NCBI GenBank assembly: GCA_016190245.1 | Contig: JACPQY010000027.1 | Span: forward strand, 1-36,384 | DNA from: Nitrospirota bacterium | Lineage (GTDB): Bacteria > JACPQY01 | DNA length: 36,384 nt | Reading direction: 5' to 3' | Shown here: positions 2,130 through 35,086 of the stretch, piece by piece | How the letters are laid out: every line of letters begins with the position of its first letter | Position numbering within the stretch: the stretch's first letter is position 1 | Notes under the pieces: generated by a model | The model's database searches: none | Told to the model about the DNA's origin: nothing | Seen by the model: the letters and a program-made list of their open reading frames with translations, nothing else | Translations under genes and position numbers: made by a program

Positions 2130-2642
2130 TCAGGCGGGCGCAAGCAGTTTGCCCAGGTCGAGAATGACGAGCAGCCGGTGGTCCTCGAGCTTCGCCACGC
2201 CGACCACGTAGTCCGCATAGTCGGGGGTGGTGAGGGCGGTGGGGGGTTCCACGATTTCCGGGGGGACGGTGAGCACCTCCAGCACCGAGTCCACGATGAG
2301 GCCGATCAGGGCCGATCCGCTGCCGACCACGATGACGCGTTGAGTGTGGGGGTCGGGTTCCATCATGGTCTCTATCCTCATGCGCCGGCGCAGATTGGCC
2401 ACCGGCAGGATGCGCCCTCGCAGGTTGATGAGGCCCTCCAGATGGGGGGGGGCGTTGGGGAGCGGACAGATTTCCTGGTAGCGGATGATTTCCTGGATGG
2501 ATTGGATCGGGACGCCGTAGTACTCGGCGCCGAGCGCGAACGTCACGAGATGAAAGGGTTGGTCGCTCCCCGGTCCGGCCGGCAAACCCGGACTTGGGGG
2601 CAGAGCGCTCGCGGGGCCGGGGGGGGGGTAGGAATCGGTCAT
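2130..2642 (-). CDS. cheW: CheW-type coupling protein (first copy)
   Basis: Cytoplasmic adaptor that couples receptors to the CheA kinase. The 170-residue protein has a Pro/Gly-rich N-terminal tail of about 27 residues followed by a CheW/SH3-like fold. Family hallmarks are GVPIQSIQEII, the NLRGRILPV segment and a C-terminal VVGVAKLEDHRLLVILDL. The ATG at 2642 lies 6 nt after the stop of the other cheW, so the two are probably translationally coupled. A C10 run covers codons 5-8 (plus-strand G10 at 2619-2628); a one-base slip there would abolish the protein. A second in-frame C9 run lies in the NAPPH segment. Two adjacent CheW paralogues suggest that each serves a different receptor or array position, which is inference. 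Confidence 0.95.
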   Translation of the reverse strand: MTDSYPPPGPASALPPSPGLPAGPGSDQPFHLVTFALGAEYYGVPIQSIQEIIRYQEICPLPNAPPHLEGLINLRGRILPVANLRRRMRIETMMEPDPHTQRVIVVGSGSALIGLIVDSVLEVLTVPPEIVEPPTALTTPDYADYVVGVAKLEDHRLLVILDLGKLLAPA

Positions 2643-2648
2643 CGGGCC

Positions 2649-3107
2649 CTATGCCGATTGGAGATACAGCTTCTCCTCGGGTGTGAGGAGCTCGTGGACG
2701 TTGAGCATGTACACGATGCGATCCTCGATCTTGGCGATGCCCAGGACGGCGTGCTCGGGCAGGAAGGTGAAACTTCGAGGGGGGGGGTCGAGTTGGGCGG
2801 GGTCGAGGTCCACCACCTGAAACACGGCATGGACGCGAAACGCCACCCGCGCCGGCTGGGGCGCCTCGGGGAAGAGCGTGGAGACGATGAAGCGGGTGCG
2901 AAGGCCCTCCTGGTCCACTTCGGTCAGACCCAGCTTTCGTGAGAGGTTCATGACGGTGATGATCTGTCCTCTCAGGTTGACCACCCCTTCGATGTATTCG
3001 GGCGATTGGGGCAGGAGCGTGATCGAGACCGGGCGGACGATCTCCTGGATCTGGGCGATGTCCATTCCGAATTCGAGGTCCGCGATGCGGAAGATGACGA
3101 ATTTCAC
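2649..3107 (-). CDS. cheW: CheW-type coupling protein (second copy)
   Basis: A 152-residue CheW-like adaptor. It begins almost directly with the fold (KFVIFRIADLEFGMDI), then IQEIVRPVSIT and the conserved VVNLRGQIITVMNL stretch, and ends with IAKIEDRIVYMLNVHELL. The start is GTG at 3107, preceded at close range by GGGAGG, a good ribosome binding site. It lies about 80 nt downstream of the sensorless MCP. A C9 tract encodes part of LDPPPR. It lacks the Pro-rich tail of the neighbouring copy, so the two are paralogues and not a recent tandem duplication. Confidence 0.95.
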   Translation of the reverse strand: MKFVIFRIADLEFGMDIAQIQEIVRPVSITLLPQSPEYIEGVVNLRGQIITVMNLSRKLGLTEVDQEGLRTRFIVSTLFPEAPQPARVAFRVHAVFQVVDLDPAQLDPPPRSFTFLPEHAVLGIAKIEDRIVYMLNVHELLTPEEKLYLQSA

Positions 3108-3186: not shown

Positions 3187-4425
3187 TCACACCTTCAGCG
3201 TGGCCACCAGGCCCATGAGCTCCCCGGTGAGCTTCTTGAGCTCGTCGGCGGCCTGAGAGACCTCGCTGATTCCGCTCGCGGTCACTTTGGACAGGGAGGA
3301 GATGGCGCCGATGTTCGAGGAGATCTCCTCGGTGGCCGCCGATTGCTCCTCGGCGCTGGCGGCGATCTGGCCGATCATGTCGGCCACCTTCTCCACGCCG
3401 GTGAGGATGTTCTTGAGGGCTTCTCCGGCCCGCGCGGCGAAGGTGCTGCCTTCTTCCACTTTCTCCACACCGCGGCGCATGGCGTCCACCGCGCCGGAGG
3501 TCTCCTGCTGGATGGTCCGGATCGTTTCCGCGATCTCCTTGGTGGCGCGGGTCGTTCGTTCGGCCAGCTTCCTCACCTCGTCGGCCACCACCGCGAACCC
3601 GCGCCCCTGCTCGCCCGCCCGCGCGGCCTCAATGGCGGCGTTGAGCGCGAGCAGGTTCGTCTGATCGGCGATGTCGTCGATCACCTGCACCACCTTCCCA
3701 ATTTGCTCCGATTTCTCGCCGAGCCGCCGAATCGTCTGGGCGCTCTCCATGACGACGGAAGAGATCTGCTGCATGCGGGTGACCGTCTCGGAGACGACCT
3801 CGCTGCCGTGCATGGCGGTCTTCTTGGCCTCGTCCGCCGCGAGGGCGGCGTCCTGCGCGTTGCGGGCCACCTCCAGCACGGTGGCGGACATCTCCTCGGC
3901 GCTCGTGGCCACCTGGCCCACCTTGGCGGCCGACTCGTCGGCCTTGTGGGCGATATCCTCGGTGACGGAGGAGACCTGGTTGGTGGAGGCGACGACCATC
4001 TCGGTGGACCCCATGATTTTCTTGAAGACGGGCAGGAGGCGGTCGAGGTGGCTGCTGAGACCCCGGGAGAGGTCGCCGAGGACGTCCTGGGAGTCCACGG
4101 TGGGACGTGTGTCGGGGCTTCCCGAACCGGACGCGAGGATCCCCGAGAGCTGCACCAGCGGTCGGACGATGAGGCGTGTGACGAGCGCCAGGCCGACGGC
4201 GGCGGAGATGAATCCCACCGCCGCGCCGGTCACCGCGAAAAGGGCCATCTCCCCGGGCCCCGGGAAATCCATCACCAGGTATCCGATGAGAGGAAGACTG
4301 ACCCCCGTGATGAGAGCCGAGAGCGCCGGGAGGGCGACCCGGAGCAGGTCCAGGCGGCTGCGTCCGGGGTGGGGAAACCATCCGCGACGCCGAGTTACAG
4401 GGGCTTGGGGGGGGGTGGGCTCCAT
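3187..4425 (-). CDS. Sensorless transmembrane methyl-accepting chemotaxis protein
   Basis: Chemoreceptor-type signal transducer of 413 residues. Two hydrophobic segments (about residues 28-52 and 60-87) are joined by only about seven residues, so there is no periplasmic ligand domain. A HAMP-like stretch follows (IVRPLVQL, then [15 protein letters not shown]), then a canonical signalling domain with [19 protein letters not shown] and [17 protein letters not shown] chose ATG 4425 because GAAGGAGG lies just upstream and it begins after the PilZ stop at 4439; a longer reading from 4521 would run through the PilZ gene. A C9 tract covers codons 4-7. The lack of an external domain suggests that it senses an intracellular or membrane cue, or signals from a partner such as the adjacent PilZ protein (inference). 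Confidence 0.93.
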
Positions 4426-4438
4426 GAGGTGTCCTCCT

Positions 4439-4894
4439 TCATCCGTCGGTGGCGGATTTCTTGGATTCGACGTAGGCCATAAGGGCCTCCTGGTCGTCGG
4501 GATCGATATTGACGAAAACAACTCCGAGGTCGTAGGTGGTGTCGGGGACCACTTCCTCGACGCGCACGATCCGACCGAGCACGACCAGCCGCTGCTGGTC
4601 CGGCCGGCCCGGCTTGATGAAACCGGGGCGGAAGCGTTCGATGCCGGAGAGGTCGAGCTGCAGGCGCAGGCTTGTCCCGAGCGGCAGAGGTGCGCTCGAC
4701 CGGATGAGGATGCCGGCCGCGCTCACGTTCTGCACCATCCCCGTTCGATGGGGCTCGCGGCCCCACTTCAGTTCGGAGAATTCCACGAGGGCGTGCCTCG
4801 GCAGCCTGAAGAAGCGACGTTGGTCGGGCCCCGGGTCCATCAGGGGTTGTACCGGGCCGTTCGGCCTCCGGTGGTGCGCGAGCTCATGTTGCAT
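4439..4894 (-). CDS. PilZ-domain protein, predicted cyclic di-GMP receptor
   Basis: Small cytoplasmic protein of 151 residues with the two hallmarks of cyclic di-GMP-binding PilZ domains. An RxxxR motif (RRFFR, residues 26-30) precedes the barrel, and an [D/N]xSxxG motif (NVSAAG, residues 56-61) follows. Both are intact, so binding is predicted. The ATG at 4894 overlaps the TGA of cheB as TGATG, implying translational coupling; a GTG one codon earlier is possible. Its place between cheB and a chemoreceptor suggests that it brings cyclic di-GMP status to this chemosensory array. The partner is unknown. Confidence 0.9.
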
Positions 4895-5958
4895 CACGCG
4901 TGCTGGATGATCTCCGCCGCGATTCGGTCGATCGGGAGCACCCGATCCACCACCCCCGCCTCGATGGCTGCTTTGGGCATGCCAAAGACCGCGCAGGTGG
5001 GCTCGTCTTGGGCGATGGTGTAGCCGCGGCTGTTCCGGATGGCCTGGAGACCCTCGACGCCGTCGTTTCCCATCCCGGTGAGCAGAACGCCCATGCAGGC
5101 TCCCGGATAGATCTGGGCAACGGAGGTCATGGCGGTGTTGATCGAGGGGCGGTACAGGGTCTCGTGCTGGTCCTTGGTGAGGTGGATCACGCCCTCGGTG
5201 CCGCTCCGCCGGAGCGACAGGTGGTGATCGCCGGGCGCGATGTAGACCTGTCCGGCGGCCAGCCGATCCCCGTCGCGCGCCTCCGTCACATGGAGAGCGC
5301 TCACGTGCCCGAGCCGCTCGGCGAACATCTGGGTGAACATCGGCGGCATGTGCTGCACCACGAGGATGGGAACTTTGAAGCCTTGGGGGAGCCGGGGAAT
5401 GATTTCCTGAACGGCGCGGGGACCGCCGGTGGAGGCCCCGATGATGATCGAGCGAAAGCGCGTGCCGTGATGGATGGGGAGAGCGGCCGCCGGCGGGGGC
5501 GCGCCGGCCTTGGGCCGTGGGGGGAGGACGCGCGAACCGGCGGCGCGGCGGATCCTCGCGATGAGTTCCTCCTTGAGGCGCAGGATGTTGAGTGTCTTCC
5601 CCTCCAGGTTCTTCGGCACGAAATCCACCGCGCCCAGTTCGAGCGCCTCCATCGTGGCCCGGGCGCCTTCCGTGGTGAGCGAGCTGACCATGACGACCGG
5701 CAGGGGGTTCGATTGCATCAGCCGCCGAAGAGCCTCCGTGCCGGACATGACGGGCATCTCCACGTCCATCGTCACCACGTTCGGTTTGAGTTGGGCGACC
5801 TTTTCGATGGCCTCGAGACCGTTGGCGGCTTCGCCCACCACCTTCACCGTGCCGTCGGACTCGATCATGTCTTTCAAGGCGCGGCGGATGAAGAAGGAGT
5901 CGTCCACCACGACGACCGTGACGATCTGCGGCGCAGCGGGGGGGGGGGAAGGGGTCAT
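4894..5958 (-). CDS. cheB: CheB protein-glutamate methylesterase/deamidase
   Basis: Response-regulator methylesterase that removes methyl groups from receptor glutamates for adaptation. The 354 residues comprise a receiver domain with acidic residues D19/D20 and phospho-acceptor D65 (TMDVEMP), a Pro-rich linker near 145-163, and a catalytic domain. The triad is visible: S176 in GASTGG, H203 in VVQHMPP and D299 in GMGNDG. Codons 4-7 are a C11 run (plus-strand G11 at 5938-5948), the longest homopolymer in the window. I see no clear ribosome binding site before ATG 5958. The partner methyltransferase CheR is not visible and may lie further left. Confidence 0.96.
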   Translation of the reverse strand: MTPSPPPAAPQIVTVVVVDDSFFIRRALKDMIESDGTVKVVGEAANGLEAIEKVAQLKPNVVTMDVEMPVMSGTEALRRLMQSNPLPVVMVSSLTTEGARATMEALELGAVDFVPKNLEGKTLNILRLKEELIARIRRAAGSRVLPPRPKAGAPPPAAALPIHHGTRFRSIIIGASTGGPRAVQEIIPRLPQGFKVPILVVQHMPPMFTQMFAERLGHVSALHVTEARDGDRLAAGQVYIAPGDHHLSLRRSGTEGVIHLTKDQHETLYRPSINTAMTSVAQIYPGACMGVLLTGMGNDGVEGLQAIRNSRGYTIAQDEPTCAVFGMPKAAIEAGVVDRVLPIDRIAAEIIQHA

Positions 5959-6034: not shown

Positions 6035-7942
6035 TCATGCTGCGATGGCTCGGTCGCGAAAGCCGAGCGCGAGATCGGAGAACAGCGCGGGCAGGTCCAC
6101 CACCAGCACGATTTTCCCGTCGCCCGTGATGCTGGCCCCGGCCACGCCGCGCACCTGGCCCATCACGGCGCCCACGCTCTTGAGCATCAGTTCCTCGCCG
6201 CCCAGGAGTTCGTTCACCACCAGGCCGACGCGCCTCTCGGCCACGCCCAGAACGACGATGTACGAACACGCCTCGAGCGGGCGCGCGCCGGCCAAGCTGA
6301 GCCGCGCGGCCATCGAGACCAGCGGGAGGATCTGGTTGCGGAAGTTGATCGCCTTGCGCCCGTTCACGAGGCGGATCTCGTCGGCGCGCAGCTTCGCGAT
6401 CTCGACCACCGAGCTCAGCGGGAGGGCAAAGACGCGGCCCGCCTCGCGGACGAGCAGCGTCTGGATGATGGCGACCGTGAGGGGGAGCCGGAGCGTGATC
6501 GTCGAGCCCCGGTTCTCCTCGGTCTGAACATCAATCGTGCCGTTGAGCTTGGCCACGTTGTTCTTGACCACGTCCATGCCGACGCCGCGGCCGGACAGGT
6601 CGTCCACCTGCTTGGCCGTGCTGAAGCCGGGGAGGAAAATGAGCTGGAGCGACTCCTCACGGCTCATCCGCTCGATTTCTTGGGAACTGAACTTGCCGGA
6701 TTCGAGGGCCTTCTGCCGGATGCGCCCGATGTCGATGCCCCGCCCGTCGTCCTCGACGATGATGGCGATGCGGTTCCCCTCGTGGAAGGCGCGCAGGCGG
6801 ATGCGTCCGATCGGGGGCTTGCCCAGCCGGGTCCGTGTCTCGGGGTCCTCGATGCCGTGGTCGATCGAGTTGCGCACGAGGTGGGTCAGCGGATCGCCGA
6901 TCTCGTCCAGGACGGACTTGTCGAGTTCCGTGTCCTCGCCCTCCACGACGAATTCCACCTGCTTGCCGCGTTTCTTGGCGATGTCGCGCACCGTGCGTGG
7001 AAACTTGCTCAGGATACGGCGCAGCGGCTGCATGCGGGCCTTCATGACGCCACCCTGGAGGTTGGTGGTGATGAGATTGAGGTGGTTGACGGTTTCCGTC
7101 AGCGATTCGGCCAGGGGGCCCGAGGCCGCCCGTTCCTCGAGGTCCGAGGCGATCTTCATGAGTCGATTGCGGCTGAGCACCAGCTCGCCCACGAGGTTCA
7201 TGATCTCGTCAAGGCGGGCCACGTCCATCCGGATGCTGGTCTCCCCCTCCTTGGTGGCGCCCTTTTGCGTGACCTGCTGGATCCGCAGCGCCTCGCTGAT
7301 GTCCTTCGGGTGGGCCAGTCCTTTCGTGACGAGGAGCTCTCCGAGACGGACCTGTTCGCCATGGACCTGCTGCTCCGCAAGGCACGCGTAGAGATCCTGT
7401 TCGGTGATGATGCCGAGATCGATGAGAATCTGGCCAAGGAGTTTGCCTCGGGTTTCCTGGCCCTCCGGAGGCGCCGGCGCGGTGGCCGGCCGCTGGGGGG
7501 GGGACTCGGGAAAGGGTGGCGGTGGGGGGGCTGCGGCGCTGGGCGCCGGCTTCGCACCCGCCTCCTGCACGGCCCCGAGCTCGCGGATTAGTCCGCCCAC
7601 TTCGACCGACTCGGCCCGCCCCTGTTCGACGGCGGCGAGGCAGGTCTTGACCCCGTCCACGGCGCGGAGGATCACGTCCGTGATGTCCGGCGTGAACCGC
7701 ATCTCTCCCTGCCGGATCTTGTTGAGCAGACTCTCGGCGTGGTGACAGAGGTCCACCAGCTTCTGGAAACCGAGGAAGCCGCCGCCGCCCTTGATCGTGT
7801 GGAAGGAGCGGAAGACCTTGTTGATGAGTTCCTGGTCCTCGGGGTTCTGCTCGAGACGAACGAAATCCTGATCGAGATCGTTGAGAAGGTCGAACGATTC
7901 CCGGAGGAAGTCTCCGGTGATTTCTTTCAGCTCGTCTTCCAC
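6035..7942 (-). CDS. cheA: CheA histidine kinase with an MshEN-like insert in place of P2
   Basis: Central kinase of the array; it autophosphorylates and passes phosphate to CheY and CheB. I read 635 residues from GTG 7942, because upstream in-frame sequence lies inside cheY. The order is: HPt domain with H48 (SFHTIKGG), a Pro/Ala linker, residues 166-223 with two repeats resembling MshEN (type II secretion ATPase N-terminal) motifs, the dimerisation helices from about 236 (RLDEIMNLVGELV), an ATPase domain with N-box HLVRNSIDHG (354-363) and GRGVGMDVV, then a C-terminal CheW-like domain. The usual CheY-binding P2 domain is not recognisable. The first repeat has LLG and the second RLG at the motif start. 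A C9 tract and no good ribosome site precede the start, so the start is moderately certain. Confidence 0.94.
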   Translation of the reverse strand: MEDELKEITGDFLRESFDLLNDLDQDFVRLEQNPEDQELINKVFRSFHTIKGGGGFLGFQKLVDLCHHAESLLNKIRQGEMRFTPDITDVILRAVDGVKTCLAAVEQGRAESVEVGGLIRELGAVQEAGAKPAPSAAAPPPPPFPESPPQRPATAPAPPEGQETRGKLLGQILIDLGIITEQDLYACLAEQQVHGEQVRLGELLVTKGLAHPKDISEALRIQQVTQKGATKEGETSIRMDVARLDEIMNLVGELVLSRNRLMKIASDLEERAASGPLAESLTETVNHLNLITTNLQGGVMKARMQPLRRILSKFPRTVRDIAKKRGKQVEFVVEGEDTELDKSVLDEIGDPLTHLVRNSIDHGIEDPETRTRLGKPPIGRIRLRAFHEGNRIAIIVEDDGRGIDIGRIRQKALESGKFSSQEIERMSREESLQLIFLPGFSTAKQVDDLSGRGVGMDVVKNNVAKLNGTIDVQTEENRGSTITLRLPLTVAIIQTLLVREAGRVFALPLSSVVEIAKLRADEIRLVNGRKAINFRNQILPLVSMAARLSLAGARPLEACSYIVVLGVAERRVGLVVNELLGGEELMLKSVGAVMGQVRGVAGASITGDGKIVLVVDLPALFSDLALGFRDRAIAA

Positions 7943-7974: not shown

Positions 7975-8397
7975 TTACGGAGGGCCCGGCCGGTCCGCGG
8001 ACGACTCGGGTTGACTCTCGAACACCTGGCCCAGTTTCTCCAGGAGCGTTTTGGCGGTGAAGGGCTTGACGATGTAGTTGTTCACGCCCGCGCTGATGGC
8101 GTTCTTGACCTTCTCCAGTTCGTTTTCGGCGGTGACCATCAGGACGGGGAGCGACTTCAAGCCATCGTCGGCTCGAATGGCTTTCAACATGTCGAGGCCC
8201 GTCATGCGCGGCATGTTCCAATCCGAGATGACGAGTCCGAACGTGTTCACCTTGAGGCGCTCGAGCGCCATGAGGCCGTCCTCCGCTTCCTCAACGTTCT
8301 CGTACCCGATCTGTTTCAGGAGGTTGCGAATGATCTTGCGCATGGTCGCGAAATCGTCCACAAGGAGGATGCGGATTTGCTTGTCGGGCAACGCCAT
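7975..8397 (-). CDS. cheY: CheY-like response regulator
   Basis: Single receiver domain of 140 residues and the first gene of the chemosensory operon. Residues D14/D15 bind metal, D59 (VISDWNMP) is the phospho-acceptor, a Thr lies in LMVTAE and a Lys in IVKPF. The sequence around the phosphorylation site resembles flagellar-motor CheY proteins (family knowledge). A short Ser/Pro-rich tail of about 14 residues is extra. I chose ATG 8397; a GTG at 8427 is possible, but the predicted -10 box lies at 8408-8413, so the ATG fits better. The stop lies 32 nt before the cheA start. Confidence 0.95.
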   Translation of the reverse strand: MALPDKQIRILLVDDFATMRKIIRNLLKQIGYENVEEAEDGLMALERLKVNTFGLVISDWNMPRMTGLDMLKAIRADDGLKSLPVLMVTAENELEKVKNAISAGVNNYIVKPFTAKTLLEKLGQVFESQPESSADRPGPP

Positions 8398-8409
8398 GGT
8401 GCATAGTAT
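8381..8409 (+). promoter_or_regulatory. Possible promoter of the Kelch gene
   Basis: TTGTCG (8381-8386), a 17-nt spacer and TAGTAT (8404-8409) are placed to drive the rightward Kelch gene. The boxes overlap the cheY start and its -10 region, so the two divergent promoters would interfere. Confidence 0.35.
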
Positions 8410-8435
8410 TCTACAGGAGGAACACACGCGATCAA
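8408..8435 (-). promoter_or_regulatory. Predicted promoter of the chemosensory operon
   Basis: On the minus strand TTGATC (8435-8430), a 16-nt spacer and TAGAAT (8413-8408) match sigma70-type boxes. The -10 box is 10 nt before the cheY ATG, so the transcript would have almost no leader. Confidence 0.55.
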
Positions 8436-8463: not shown

Positions 8464-10127
8464 TTGAACGGCCTCTGCCGGTGGATCTTCGCGGGAGGCC
8501 TCGCCCTCGTCGGTGGAGCGTCGCCCGCCTGCGAAGAAAACGTCGGCACCGTCACCGTTCGCCTCGTGAGCCCCCCCCCGCCTACCCCCAGACGCTGGCG
8601 GGAGTGCGGCGCTTCGTGCTCAAAGTCGAGAAAGCGGGCGAGGTGCTGGCAGAACACGCGTTCACGAGCCGTGAGGAAATCACGGTGCCGGGTGTGGATG
8701 TGGTGGACGGCGCGTACATCGTGCTCGAGGGGCGGACCCCGGCCGGCAAGCTTCTGGCAAAAGGAAAGGTGGGGCCGATCGACCTGTCGCGGGCGCGGGC
8801 GAACGGCGAGCTGACCGTCACGATGTTCTTCGGCGACGTGCGGCTCTTCACGCCATTTGCCGAATCTAGCTTGGGGAGGGTGGATCACCGGGCGGCGCGG
8901 CTGCCCAACGCAGATGTCCTCATCACGGGCGGCGACCGCCTCGTCTCCTTGGATGTCGATCTTGACGGCGACGGCCGGAACGAGACGATCCAGCAGCCGC
9001 GTTCTTCCTCCACCTACGAGGTGTTGAGTCTCCAGACGCTCGAACTCACGACGTACCCGAACCGGGTGGATTTCTCTCCCGCGCCCCGGACGAAGCATCA
9101 GGCCGTGGTCCTGCCGGACAACCGCGTGGTGCTGGTGGGCGGGGCCTCACGGCTCCCCACCAGCCTTAACCTGGGCATTGGCGACTATCGCAATGACGTC
9201 GAGATCTTCGACCCGGATGAAGTCACGATTCAGGCCCGCGCCGCGCTGGCCTTCGGGAGGTGGGACCACTCGGCCACGCTGCTCCCCGATGGGCGCATTC
9301 TGGTGGCGGGGGGCCGGGGGGGGGAAGGCAAGGGATCCCTCCCGGGCTCGGTTCTCGCCCATGCCGAACTGCTGGAGGTCGAGCCCAAAGGCTTCGTCCC
9401 GTCGGATCCGTCCGAGGCGGCGACGCGTACGACCGCTCTCGAACCGGGCCCCACCTGCGCGCGGGCCGGGCATTCGGCCGCCTACGTGCCCTCGGTCGGC
9501 AGGGTTCTCCTGGTGGGAGGCGTGGATTCGACCGGGACGGCGACGGACTGCGTGGAGGCCTACATTCCGGAGGAGCGGCGGTTCGAGAAGGTCGAGATGG
9601 TGTCTTCGGACGGCTCGACGGTCTGGCGGGGACGGACCGGCATCGCCACGGCCTATTCCGCCGCGCGCGGCGAGCTCTACCTTGTGGGGGGGGCGGCCAT
9701 CCCGAGGGACTCAGCCGACCAGCCCACGGGCACCGCTCGGCCGGTCAATTTTCTGGATGTGCTGACGTTCGACCTGACGGCTCCCCATCGCGTCACGTTC
9801 GAGCGGGTTCCCATGGTGCTCGATAGCGGGACCGTGGAATCCCGCGCTCAGTCACGCGCGGCCTTCCTCCCGGATGGCCGCCTCCTGATCGTGGGTGGGG
9901 AGGCGATCATTCTCGATCAGGTGCTCCCGGCCCGGGCGTGGCTCATCTTCGATCCCGCGACCCGCCGGTTCAGCTCCTCGGGAGACCAGGGCCTCACGGA
10001 AGCCCGTCGCATGGGCCATTCGCTCGCCGTCCTGCCAAATGGAGAGGTGCTCGTCATAGGCGGCGAGGTCGCCTCCGACCGCTACGCGAAACTGGTGGAG
10101 TGGTACACGCCGGAGGAGGGGTCGTGA
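8464..10127 (+). CDS. Secreted seven-repeat Kelch propeller protein, frame broken at a C9 tract
   Basis: Translation most likely begins at TTG 8464, just after a strong GAGGAGGGGA site. It encodes a signal peptide (LNGLCRWIFAGGLALVGG, then ASPAC) and about 13 mature residues. At the C9 run 8571-8579 this frame must shift by -1 to enter the long frame that continues YPQTLAGVRRFVLKVEK and ends at 10127. One more C would restore a single reading frame of about 555 residues. The long frame has seven Kelch-like blades, each with a D/GHSA-LPDGRVLVVGG-type signature (near 8885, 9095, 9265, 9470, 9640, 9855 and 10010). The product is probably a periplasmic or surface beta-propeller; its ligand is unknown. 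The frame that skips the signal peptide begins with an implausible Arg-rich stretch. Confidence 0.8.
8571..8579 (+). repeat. C9 homopolymer at the Kelch frame break
   Basis: Nine consecutive C residues join the signal-peptide frame to the propeller frame. A C10 allele would give Ser-Pro-Pro-Pro-Ala-Tyr and a continuous protein. Slipped-strand mispairing, transcriptional slippage and a sequencing indel are all possible explanations. Confidence 0.85.
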
Positions 10128-32932: not shown

Positions 32933-35086
32933 ATGGGACGCCTCGGGCGCCTTTTCCTGCGGCACTACCTCATGGTTTTCGGTGTGGGTGGGTGCGCGAT
33001 GTGGATCGCGGGGCTGTACGATCCGGGCCGCCGTCTGACCTACCCCACGCTCTTCTTCCTGATCCTCGTGACGTTCCTCGCGTTCTACCAGCTCTTCACC
33101 TATCTCCGGGACCCGCACCCGAGCTGGATCAAACAGCTCGATCAGGCCGTGGGTGTCGGGGTGAGCATGCGGTTGATGATCGAAACGTTGGGAGGCTTCC
33201 AGAGTCCATTCTATCCGGTCCTGTACCTGGCCATGGCGTTCGCCTCCGCGCTATTCAGCGTTCGCGTGGCCCTGGCCGTGGCCGGTCTGGTCGTGGTCTC
33301 CGAGCACCTCCATGCCTGGCTGCACGGCGTGTGGACCACGCGGTTCCCGCCCGAACTGCTCAACCAGGTGCTTCTGGGCGCGTTCGCGTTTCTGCCGGGT
33401 TTCTTCCTGAACCACGAACGGCGGGAGCGCATGCGCGCGCTGATCCAGTTGCGGAGCTACGAGAAGGACGCGGCATACTTCGACTTCGCCCGCTACGCGG
33501 ACATGGTGGACGGCCGGGTCTCCACGCGCGAACTATCGAGGTCGCAACTGGAGCGGGACCTCGTCTCCATCCTTCATCATACCCGCCCGCCGCTGGACGA
33601 GATCACCGCGCTGCTTTTCGAGCGCCTCAAGGCTCACACGGTCGCCGTCTACCTCGTGGACAACGGCGGCCGGTCCGCCTGGCTCCGTTCCAGTCGAAGC
33701 CACGGCGAGGCGCTCGACGTCTGTCATCCCATTGCCGTCAGGGACAGCCTTTTCGCCTGGCCCTTCAGCCAGAAGAAAAAGTTCTACATTCCCCAGGTCA
33801 AGTCCCCCGAGGTTCTTCAGTACTACACCGAGCCGCCCGACGTGAAGTCGCTCGTGTGCTTCCCCATCACCCACGGCGAGTGGGTCGAGGGTTTTCTGCT
33901 CATCGATTTCCTCCGGGAGGAGGGGCTCACGGGGAGTTCCGAGTCCCTGCTCGAGATGGCGGTGGCCGCGACCGGACAGGCGATCTCCAGCATGAAGACG
34001 CTCCAGCGGATCCACCAGGAAGGGATCGTGTTTGCGGCGTTCAACCGCGCCTCGCGCGAGATCTCCTCCAGCCTCAACCTCCGTGAGATCTCGAAGGCCG
34101 TCGGGGAGGTGGTCCGCCAGATCCTGGAATGCGACGTGGTCGCCCTCGCTATCTGCGAGACGATGCCCGAACAGATCGCGATCTACGAACCTCTGGGCCT
34201 CCGGGTGGTTCGAGCGCGCACGCGGACGGCGAGCGGCGTAGAGGAGGACCCGATCATCCTGAGGCCGGGCGAAGGGCCGATCGGATGGACGATCGATCAC
34301 AAGGAGCCTTTCCCCAAGCTGACGGTGGAGGAGACGATGCCGCTCCTGGGAGACCACAAGCTTCTGCGCGAGGTCCAATCCTTCGTGTGCCTGCCGCTGA
34401 GCCTCAAGGAGGCGTGCCATGGCGCCATGCTGGTGGGTTCGTACGAAGCGGATCATTTCGGCGCCCGCGAGCTTCACCTGCTCCGAACGATCGTGCACCA
34501 GGCGGCGCTGGCGGTATCCCACGCCATGGCGTACAGGGAGAAGGAGCGCCAGTCGCTCACCGACGGGTTGACCAATCTCTACAACCGCCGGTTCTTCATG
34601 GAGGCGTTGGACCGGGAGATCGACCGCGTGGAGCGGTTCCCGCAGGACTTCACCGTTCTCATCATGGATCTCGATCACTTCAAGAAGATCAACGACACCT
34701 ACGGGCATCCCGCGGGAGACCTCGTGCTCAGGAAAGTGGCCCGGCAACTCAAGAGGATATCGCGCCGCATCGACACGGTGGCGCGCTATGGCGGGGAGGA
34801 GTTCGGGGCGATCCTGGTCAATACGGGGGAGAAGGAGGGGCTCAAGTTCGCCGAGCGGGTCCGGCGCGATGTCGCAGATCTTTCGTTCCCCGTTGCGGAG
34901 CTTGGGGTGACGGGGAAGGAGCTCGTGAAGCTGACGGCCAGCCTCGGCCTCGCAACGTATCCCCAGGACGGCCGCAGCGGGAAGGAACTCGTTGACCATG
35001 CGGATAAGGCGCTGTACTACGCAAAGAACACGGGCCGGGACCGGGTGTCGATTTTTTCGAAAGTGAAGAATCTCATCCCCGGCTGA
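32933..35086 (+). CDS. Membrane GAF-GAF-GGDEF diguanylate cyclase
   Basis: Predicted to make cyclic di-GMP from two GTP. The 717 residues begin with about five membrane helices (residues 10-165), then two GAF-like domains (about 205-350 and 365-525) and a GGDEF domain from about 545. The active site is intact: DLDHFKKINDTYGHPAGD and RYGGEEFGAIL. An inhibitory I-site RxxD (RRID) lies five residues before GGEEF, so product inhibition is expected. AGGA lies about 10 nt before the ATG. The GAF domains may sense a small molecule; the ligand is unknown. It could feed the PilZ and CheA modules at the other end of the window, but this is inference. Confidence 0.93.
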   Translation: MGRLGRLFLRHYLMVFGVGGCAMWIAGLYDPGRRLTYPTLFFLILVTFLAFYQLFTYLRDPHPSWIKQLDQAVGVGVSMRLMIETLGGFQSPFYPVLYLAMAFASALFSVRVALAVAGLVVVSEHLHAWLHGVWTTRFPPELLNQVLLGAFAFLPGFFLNHERRERMRALIQLRSYEKDAAYFDFARYADMVDGRVSTRELSRSQLERDLVSILHHTRPPLDEITALLFERLKAHTVAVYLVDNGGRSAWLRSSRSHGEALDVCHPIAVRDSLFAWPFSQKKKFYIPQVKSPEVLQYYTEPPDVKSLVCFPITHGEWVEGFLLIDFLREEGLTGSSESLLEMAVAATGQAISSMKTLQRIHQEGIVFAAFNRASREISSSLNLREISKAVGEVVRQILECDVVALAICETMPEQIAIYEPLGLRVVRARTRTASGVEEDPIILRPGEGPIGWTIDHKEPFPKLTVEETMPLLGDHKLLREVQSFVCLPLSLKEACHGAMLVGSYEADHFGARELHLLRTIVHQAALAVSHAMAYREKERQSLTDGLTNLYNRRFFMEALDREIDRVERFPQDFTVLIMDLDHFKKINDTYGHPAGDLVLRKVARQLKRISRRIDTVARYGGEEFGAILVNTGEKEGLKFAERVRRDVADLSFPVAELGVTGKELVKLTASLGLATYPQDGRSGKELVDHADKALYYAKNTGRDRVSIFSKVKNLIPG

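Follow-up and report, generated by a model that had tools for sequence, protein, structure and literature searches.

A CheA kinase with a predicted cyclic di-GMP-binding MshEN module in the linker between P1 and the dimerisation domain

The window, a 36,384-nucleotide stretch of DNA from a Nitrospirota bacterium, encodes a chemosensory cluster in which cheY, cheA, cheB, pilZ, a chemoreceptor gene (MCP) and two cheW genes follow one another on the same strand. The genes, and the parts of CheA that concern us here, are as follows.

7975..8427, minus strand: cheY, a stand-alone receiver domain, upstream of cheA (Pfam Response_reg)
6035..7942, minus strand: cheA, 635 amino acids, GTG start (Pfam domains and NCBIfam CheA models)
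7628..7921, minus strand: Hpt domain (P1) of CheA, residues 8-105, with the phosphorylation-site His48 in HTIKG (PF01627, E 9e-16)
7274..7441, minus strand: MshEN_N (GSPII N-subdomain) four-helix module of CheA, residues 168-223 (NF053729, AlphaFold model)
7370..7441, minus strand: motif I, residues 168-191, LLGQILIDLGIITEQDLYACLAEQ (read from the translation)
7349..7369, minus strand: spacer QVHGEQV, 7 residues, 192-198 (read from the translation)
7277..7348, minus strand: motif II, residues 199-222, RLGELLVTKGLAHPKDISEALRIQ (read from the translation)
7040..7240, minus strand: dimerisation domain (P3, H-kinase_dim), residues 235-301 (Pfam PF02895)
6476..6895, minus strand: HATPase_c kinase domain (P4), residues 350-489 (Pfam PF02518)
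6074..6463, minus strand: CheW-like domain (P5), residues 494-623 (Pfam PF01584)
4894..5958, minus strand: cheB (Pfam CheB_methylest and Response_reg)
4439..4897, minus strand: single-domain PilZ protein (PF07238, 43 bits) with RRFFR and NVSAAG motifs (found by reading)
3187..4521, minus strand: chemoreceptor (MCP) open reading frame (Pfam MCPsignal)
2649..3107, minus strand: cheW (Pfam CheW)
2130..2642, minus strand: second cheW (Pfam CheW)

The cheA product was identified as a CheA by an Hpt domain with a phosphorylatable His, a dimerisation domain, HATPase_c and a CheW-like domain in that order (Pfam and alignment), and H48 of the Hpt domain is invariant in an alignment of 23 MshEN-fused CheAs. 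No Pfam model for P2 or a CheY-binding domain matched the protein at E-values up to 1, and its build is not the classical one of five domains. In the full-length model, residues 171-220 are ordered, with 132-165 and 228-239 disordered, and the MshEN module is the only ordered part between Hpt and P3; in this predicted structure, the MshEN island occupies the position where classical CheAs have P2. The absence of P2 is by itself ordinary, because more than half of all CheAs are without it, as found in a survey of 13,673 CheAs (Berry et al, 2023; PMC10542144). The P2-less CheAs of that survey have the same core of Hpt, dimerisation, HATPase and CheW domains as ours. Its auxiliary CheA domains are P2, CheY-like and CheC/CheX, with MshEN unmentioned, and the region in P2-less CheAs is described as extended and unstructured (PMC10542144). 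Elsewhere in the genome there is a second CheA frame of 706 residues, for which the match was limited to the dimerisation region and did not cover the MshEN part.

The sequence-only reading had singled out two segments of the CheA linker as a tandem MshEN-like motif, and both were found, at residues 168-191 and 199-222. Every position of motif I agrees with the extended consensus (R/K/L)LGxx(LVI)(LVI)xxG(LVI)(LVI)xxxxLxxxLxxQ, and motif II departs from it only at position 12 (Ala) and position 17 (Ile). The residues that mark the tandem 24-residue motif (Gly3, Gly10, Leu/Ile17, Leu21 and Gln24) are all present. Leu17 touches guanine in PilF and MshE; Ile17 is frequent in motif II of the ATPase controls (8/17). 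As for the claim that the pairing is of MshEN type, the motif pattern stands, and the spacing, at 7 residues, is not that of V. cholerae MshE (5 residues) yet falls inside the range of 5 to 8 residues seen in ATPase MshENs (n=17). The Leu said to replace the usual Arg of the first repeat is indeed at motif I position 1, so the literal 2016 consensus, with Arg1 in both motifs, is matched at this position by motif II only. Arg1 is not family-defining, however, because later work showed it to be dispensable and broadened the consensus to R/K/L. The RLG of the second repeat, whose conservation had been named as a check, is retained in the sole same-phylum relative compared (two genomes in all, the relative being G001), which has Met at motif I position 1. 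Among 60 CheA-borne motif pairs from 54 loci, the window's pair deviates least (2 departures, next best 4), a ranking somewhat biased toward it because the profile used for collecting the pairs, together with the motif pattern, contained its own sequence.

Motifs of just 24 residues that are rich in Leu and Gly might also arise by chance in a helical linker, and we therefore considered this reading alongside the profile evidence. NCBIfam NF053729, a 53-position model of an MshE-related c-di-GMP motif, matches CheA at 48.8 bits (E 4e-13; curated cut-off 38 bits), and weaker NCBIfam matches to NfrB and EpsG fall on the same segment. All 23 of the aligned fused CheAs match NF053729 at E up to 0.001. 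A profile made from ATPases only (14 MshENs, all from other genomes) scores CheA at 47 bits, far over the best of 1000 linker shuffles (8.1 bits), and CheAs without the motifs gave background scores. When the PDB was searched with a profile of CheA-borne MshENs, the matches at E below 0.001 were solely MshEN-bearing pilus ATPases, 5HTL included. On the side of chance, Pfam PF05157 (named MshEN, 90 positions) matched neither the whole CheA nor two segments of it. However, this silence is expected, as PF05157 covers the C-terminal subdomain, which is missing from CheA, and it begins after motif II in all three ATPases of this genome. By these profile alignments, CheA carries the N-terminal MshEN subdomain only. 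The HMM search that had been suggested thus gave a significant match with NF053729 and none with PF05157; in its Pfam form the check fails trivially, because that profile models the other subdomain.

Structure prediction of the segment, also suggested from the sequence, returned an MshEN-like fold. The AlphaFold model, made with 16 CheA segments, has four helices, with pLDDT of 90 or more across most of the core. The top 8 Foldseek matches in the PDB are all c-di-GMP-bound MshE or PilF GSPII-B (probability 1.00), with 5HTL and the PilF GSPII-B complexes closest, and the best two have an rmsd of about 1 Å over 57-58 columns; the E-values of the top matches are weak (0.2 to 0.6), as the shortness of the domain would lead one to expect. 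X. citri PilB, through its MshEN-like domain, was matched with a probability of 0.69-0.77, and the remaining entries were below 0.2. The VIA structural comparison with MshE/PilF entries gave Z values of 9.3-9.9, which helical bundles may reach, and for this reason the fold claim is based on sequence and structure pointing the same way. The VIA rmsd is larger than that from Foldseek because the alignment runs past the core. As modelled, the CheA module is an MshEN-type four-helix bundle. The chance reading is refuted by NF053729, the 1000-shuffle test and the Foldseek match, and we give it a negligible probability. The MshEN assignment passed sequence, profile and fold tests, and we are nearly certain that residues 168-222 of the linker are an MshEN N-subdomain.

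Two characterized domains bear on whether this module binds c-di-GMP. V. cholerae MshEN_N (MshE, 5HTL) shares with CheA the two 24-residue motifs, the four-helix bundle, the motif II RLG, and Gly3, Gly10, Leu21 and Gln24 in both motifs, and the CheA model superposes on it at ~1 Å over 57 residues. Besides Leu for Arg at motif I position 1, the 7-residue spacer, and Ala12 and Ile17 in motif II, CheA differs from 5HTL by having no C-terminal subdomain and by its host, a CheA kinase as opposed to a pilus ATPase. Thermus thermophilus PilF GSPII-B (8PDK; K167L, 8PE0) has the same fold, the same Gln contacts and, like CheA, a non-Arg motif start; it differs in a motif II that is one residue shorter and in having the C-terminal subdomain. 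The first residues of its two motifs are Lys and Leu, with no Arg, and its KD is 6 nM (PMC11731258). Changing Lys167 (motif I position 1) to Arg lets the affinity fall to 150 nM, and K167L, which places Leu at exactly the position where CheA has it, gives a KD of 2 nM (PMC11731258). The PilF authors widened the consensus to (R/K/L)LG and suggested that very high affinity can be expected where the first residue is hydrophobic (PMC11731258). The sequence-only reading had doubted binding on account of the Leu; this doubt is answered by PilF, and the caveat becomes support, because Leu at the same position there gives the tightest binding. The missing C-terminal subdomain is no obstacle, because isolated MshE residues 1-62 (the N-subdomain without the C-subdomain) bind c-di-GMP with a KD of 0.35 µM (Wang et al, 2016; PMC5013675). 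Nearly all ligand-contacting positions are retained in the CheA module. Against binding, there are Ala12 and Ile17 in motif II and the spacer of 7 instead of 5 residues; in addition, PilF GSPII-A has a near-consensus motif, yet does not bind c-di-GMP. Overall, c-di-GMP binding by the module is probable.

We propose that this CheA has a c-di-GMP-binding MshEN_N module in its P1-P3 linker (probability roughly 0.6). One c-di-GMP would be bound per CheA subunit in the manner of MshE and PilF, probably tightly, and binding would stiffen or re-orient the module between P1 and the dimer core. Cellular c-di-GMP could in this way alter the rate of P1 phosphorylation or of phosphate transfer to CheY and CheB, as an internal messenger input on top of the chemoreceptor input. 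The neighbouring single-domain PilZ protein, a candidate for the cluster's second c-di-GMP receptor, would provide a second input to the same pathway. For a regulatory effect of the module on the kinase, we see even odds. The broader proposal, that the CheA autokinase is itself a tight c-di-GMP receptor integrating messenger and chemoreceptor signals, with related fusions across many phyla that CheA surveys have overlooked, is put forward tentatively.

The MshEN fold might instead serve in the place of P2 as a docking platform for proteins (CheY, CheB or PilZ), with no binding of c-di-GMP. The module lies at the P2 position between two flexible linkers; the non-binding PilF GSPII-A has been proposed as a landing pad; and in X. 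citri PilB, an MshEN-like domain without c-di-GMP motifs binds a PilZ protein, a pilZ gene being present in both the window's cluster and that of G001. Most other CheA-borne motif pairs are also more degenerate than the window's, with a spacer of 1 residue in 23/60, and this degeneracy would suit a family whose role is, overall, structural. However, the window's CheA keeps the guanine-stacking, Gly and Gln positions far better than a pure scaffold needs, and the X. citri PilZ contact extensively uses the C-terminal ND1 subdomain, which is absent from it, so we consider docking alone unlikely. Alternatively, c-di-GMP could be a structural cofactor that is bound constitutively, always occupying its site and not signalling. 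This would be in keeping with Leu1 of motif I, which predicts very tight binding, and the PilF authors raise the same idea where a KD lies under the cellular concentration of c-di-GMP (PMC11731258). We regard it as quite improbable, as cutting the affinity of PilF to the MshE level altered motility and adhesion, meaning that affinity matters there (PMC11731258), and as the motif II departures in CheA may lower its affinity.

We favour a c-di-GMP-responsive CheA, and a search for CheAs with the same architecture, as had been suggested, found others in many phyla. In a broad sample, about 40/386 genomes had matches that extended over both the dimerisation domain and the MshEN part, a count of spanning matches not all of which were individually confirmed as CheA. 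A GTDB scan with one dimerisation-domain pattern, which returned many ordinary CheAs besides fusions, added Gemmatimonadota, Actinomycetota, Acidobacteriota, Planctomycetota, Nitrospirota, Spirochaetota, Geomonas and others. Three spacer classes occur among the CheA-borne pairs: 1, 2-3 and 5-8 residues. The spacers of L073, L075, L077, L082, L103 and others (Geomonas, Nitrospirota, Spirochaetota) consist of one residue, mostly Lys, for which the pocket geometry must differ from that of MshE. Three loci (L026, L034 and L069) have four consecutive MshEN motifs upstream of the dimerisation domain, and L026 additionally contains at least two Hpt-like sites (HTIKG/HTLKG). The domain is present in three genomes of one rare phylum and missing from the CheA of a fourth, which has the same build (L025). 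When a tree of the CheA core was labelled by spacer class, the classes clustered, with automatic labels that were loose (the motif-less L025 was labelled 'single').

CheA, a histidine kinase, is described as having no sensor domain itself. Should MshEN-CheAs bind c-di-GMP, the chemotaxis kinase would be directly tuned, in many phyla, by the messenger that decides between swimming and attachment. The architecture is not unique or new: Wang et al (2016; PMC5013675) name CheA in one clause among the domains fused to MshEN, the same domain combination as in the window, and their main text gives no sequence, affinity or function for any CheA fusion. A search of the open-access literature returned no paper on a c-di-GMP-binding CheA, absence there being weak evidence. 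The window's CheA is a well-preserved member of an architecture that is known but neglected, and, as none of the other fusions examined has motifs so close to the binding consensus, it is the best candidate here for a first binding test.

The pilZ gene had been placed next to cheA; it is in the same cluster but not directly adjacent, with cheB between. In P. aeruginosa, the PilZ adaptor MapZ acts on a chemotaxis methyltransferase, which likewise brings c-di-GMP into a chemosensory pathway, and the window's cluster also has a PilZ protein. The receptor in MapZ is a separate adaptor on the methyltransferase, whereas in CheA it would be a domain of the kinase. The 25 families found most often near the 23 MshEN-CheA fusions do not include PilZ, so its pairing with MshEN-CheA may be phylum-specific; the neighbours of these fusions are ordinary chemotaxis genes, with FliM and FliN in some. 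The genome as a whole has 19 GGDEF matches over the cut-off, 10 PilZ domains and one FliM. At 32933-35086 (plus strand), the window encodes a 717-amino-acid GGDEF protein (PF00990 match at C13:34556-35044), a possible local source of c-di-GMP. By eye, the MCP at 3187-4521 (minus strand) seems to have two hydrophobic helices and almost no extracytoplasmic loop, which suggests that it perceives an internal or membrane signal.

In G001, the che cluster has a ParA/MinD-type ATPase gene after cheW (L138:12501-13253), a gene that the window lacks at this place, its two cheW genes lying side by side. The G001 cheA (L138:7011-9112) changes frame after P1 and before the MshEN part, close to a stretch of nine C, and this is probably an assembly error and not a split gene. 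Divergent from cheY, the window has a gene at 8481-10127 (plus strand) whose product shows, by eye, repeats of a Kelch-like GG motif, and a similar N-terminus is seemingly encoded upstream of the G001 cheA (L138:4899-6539, minus strand).
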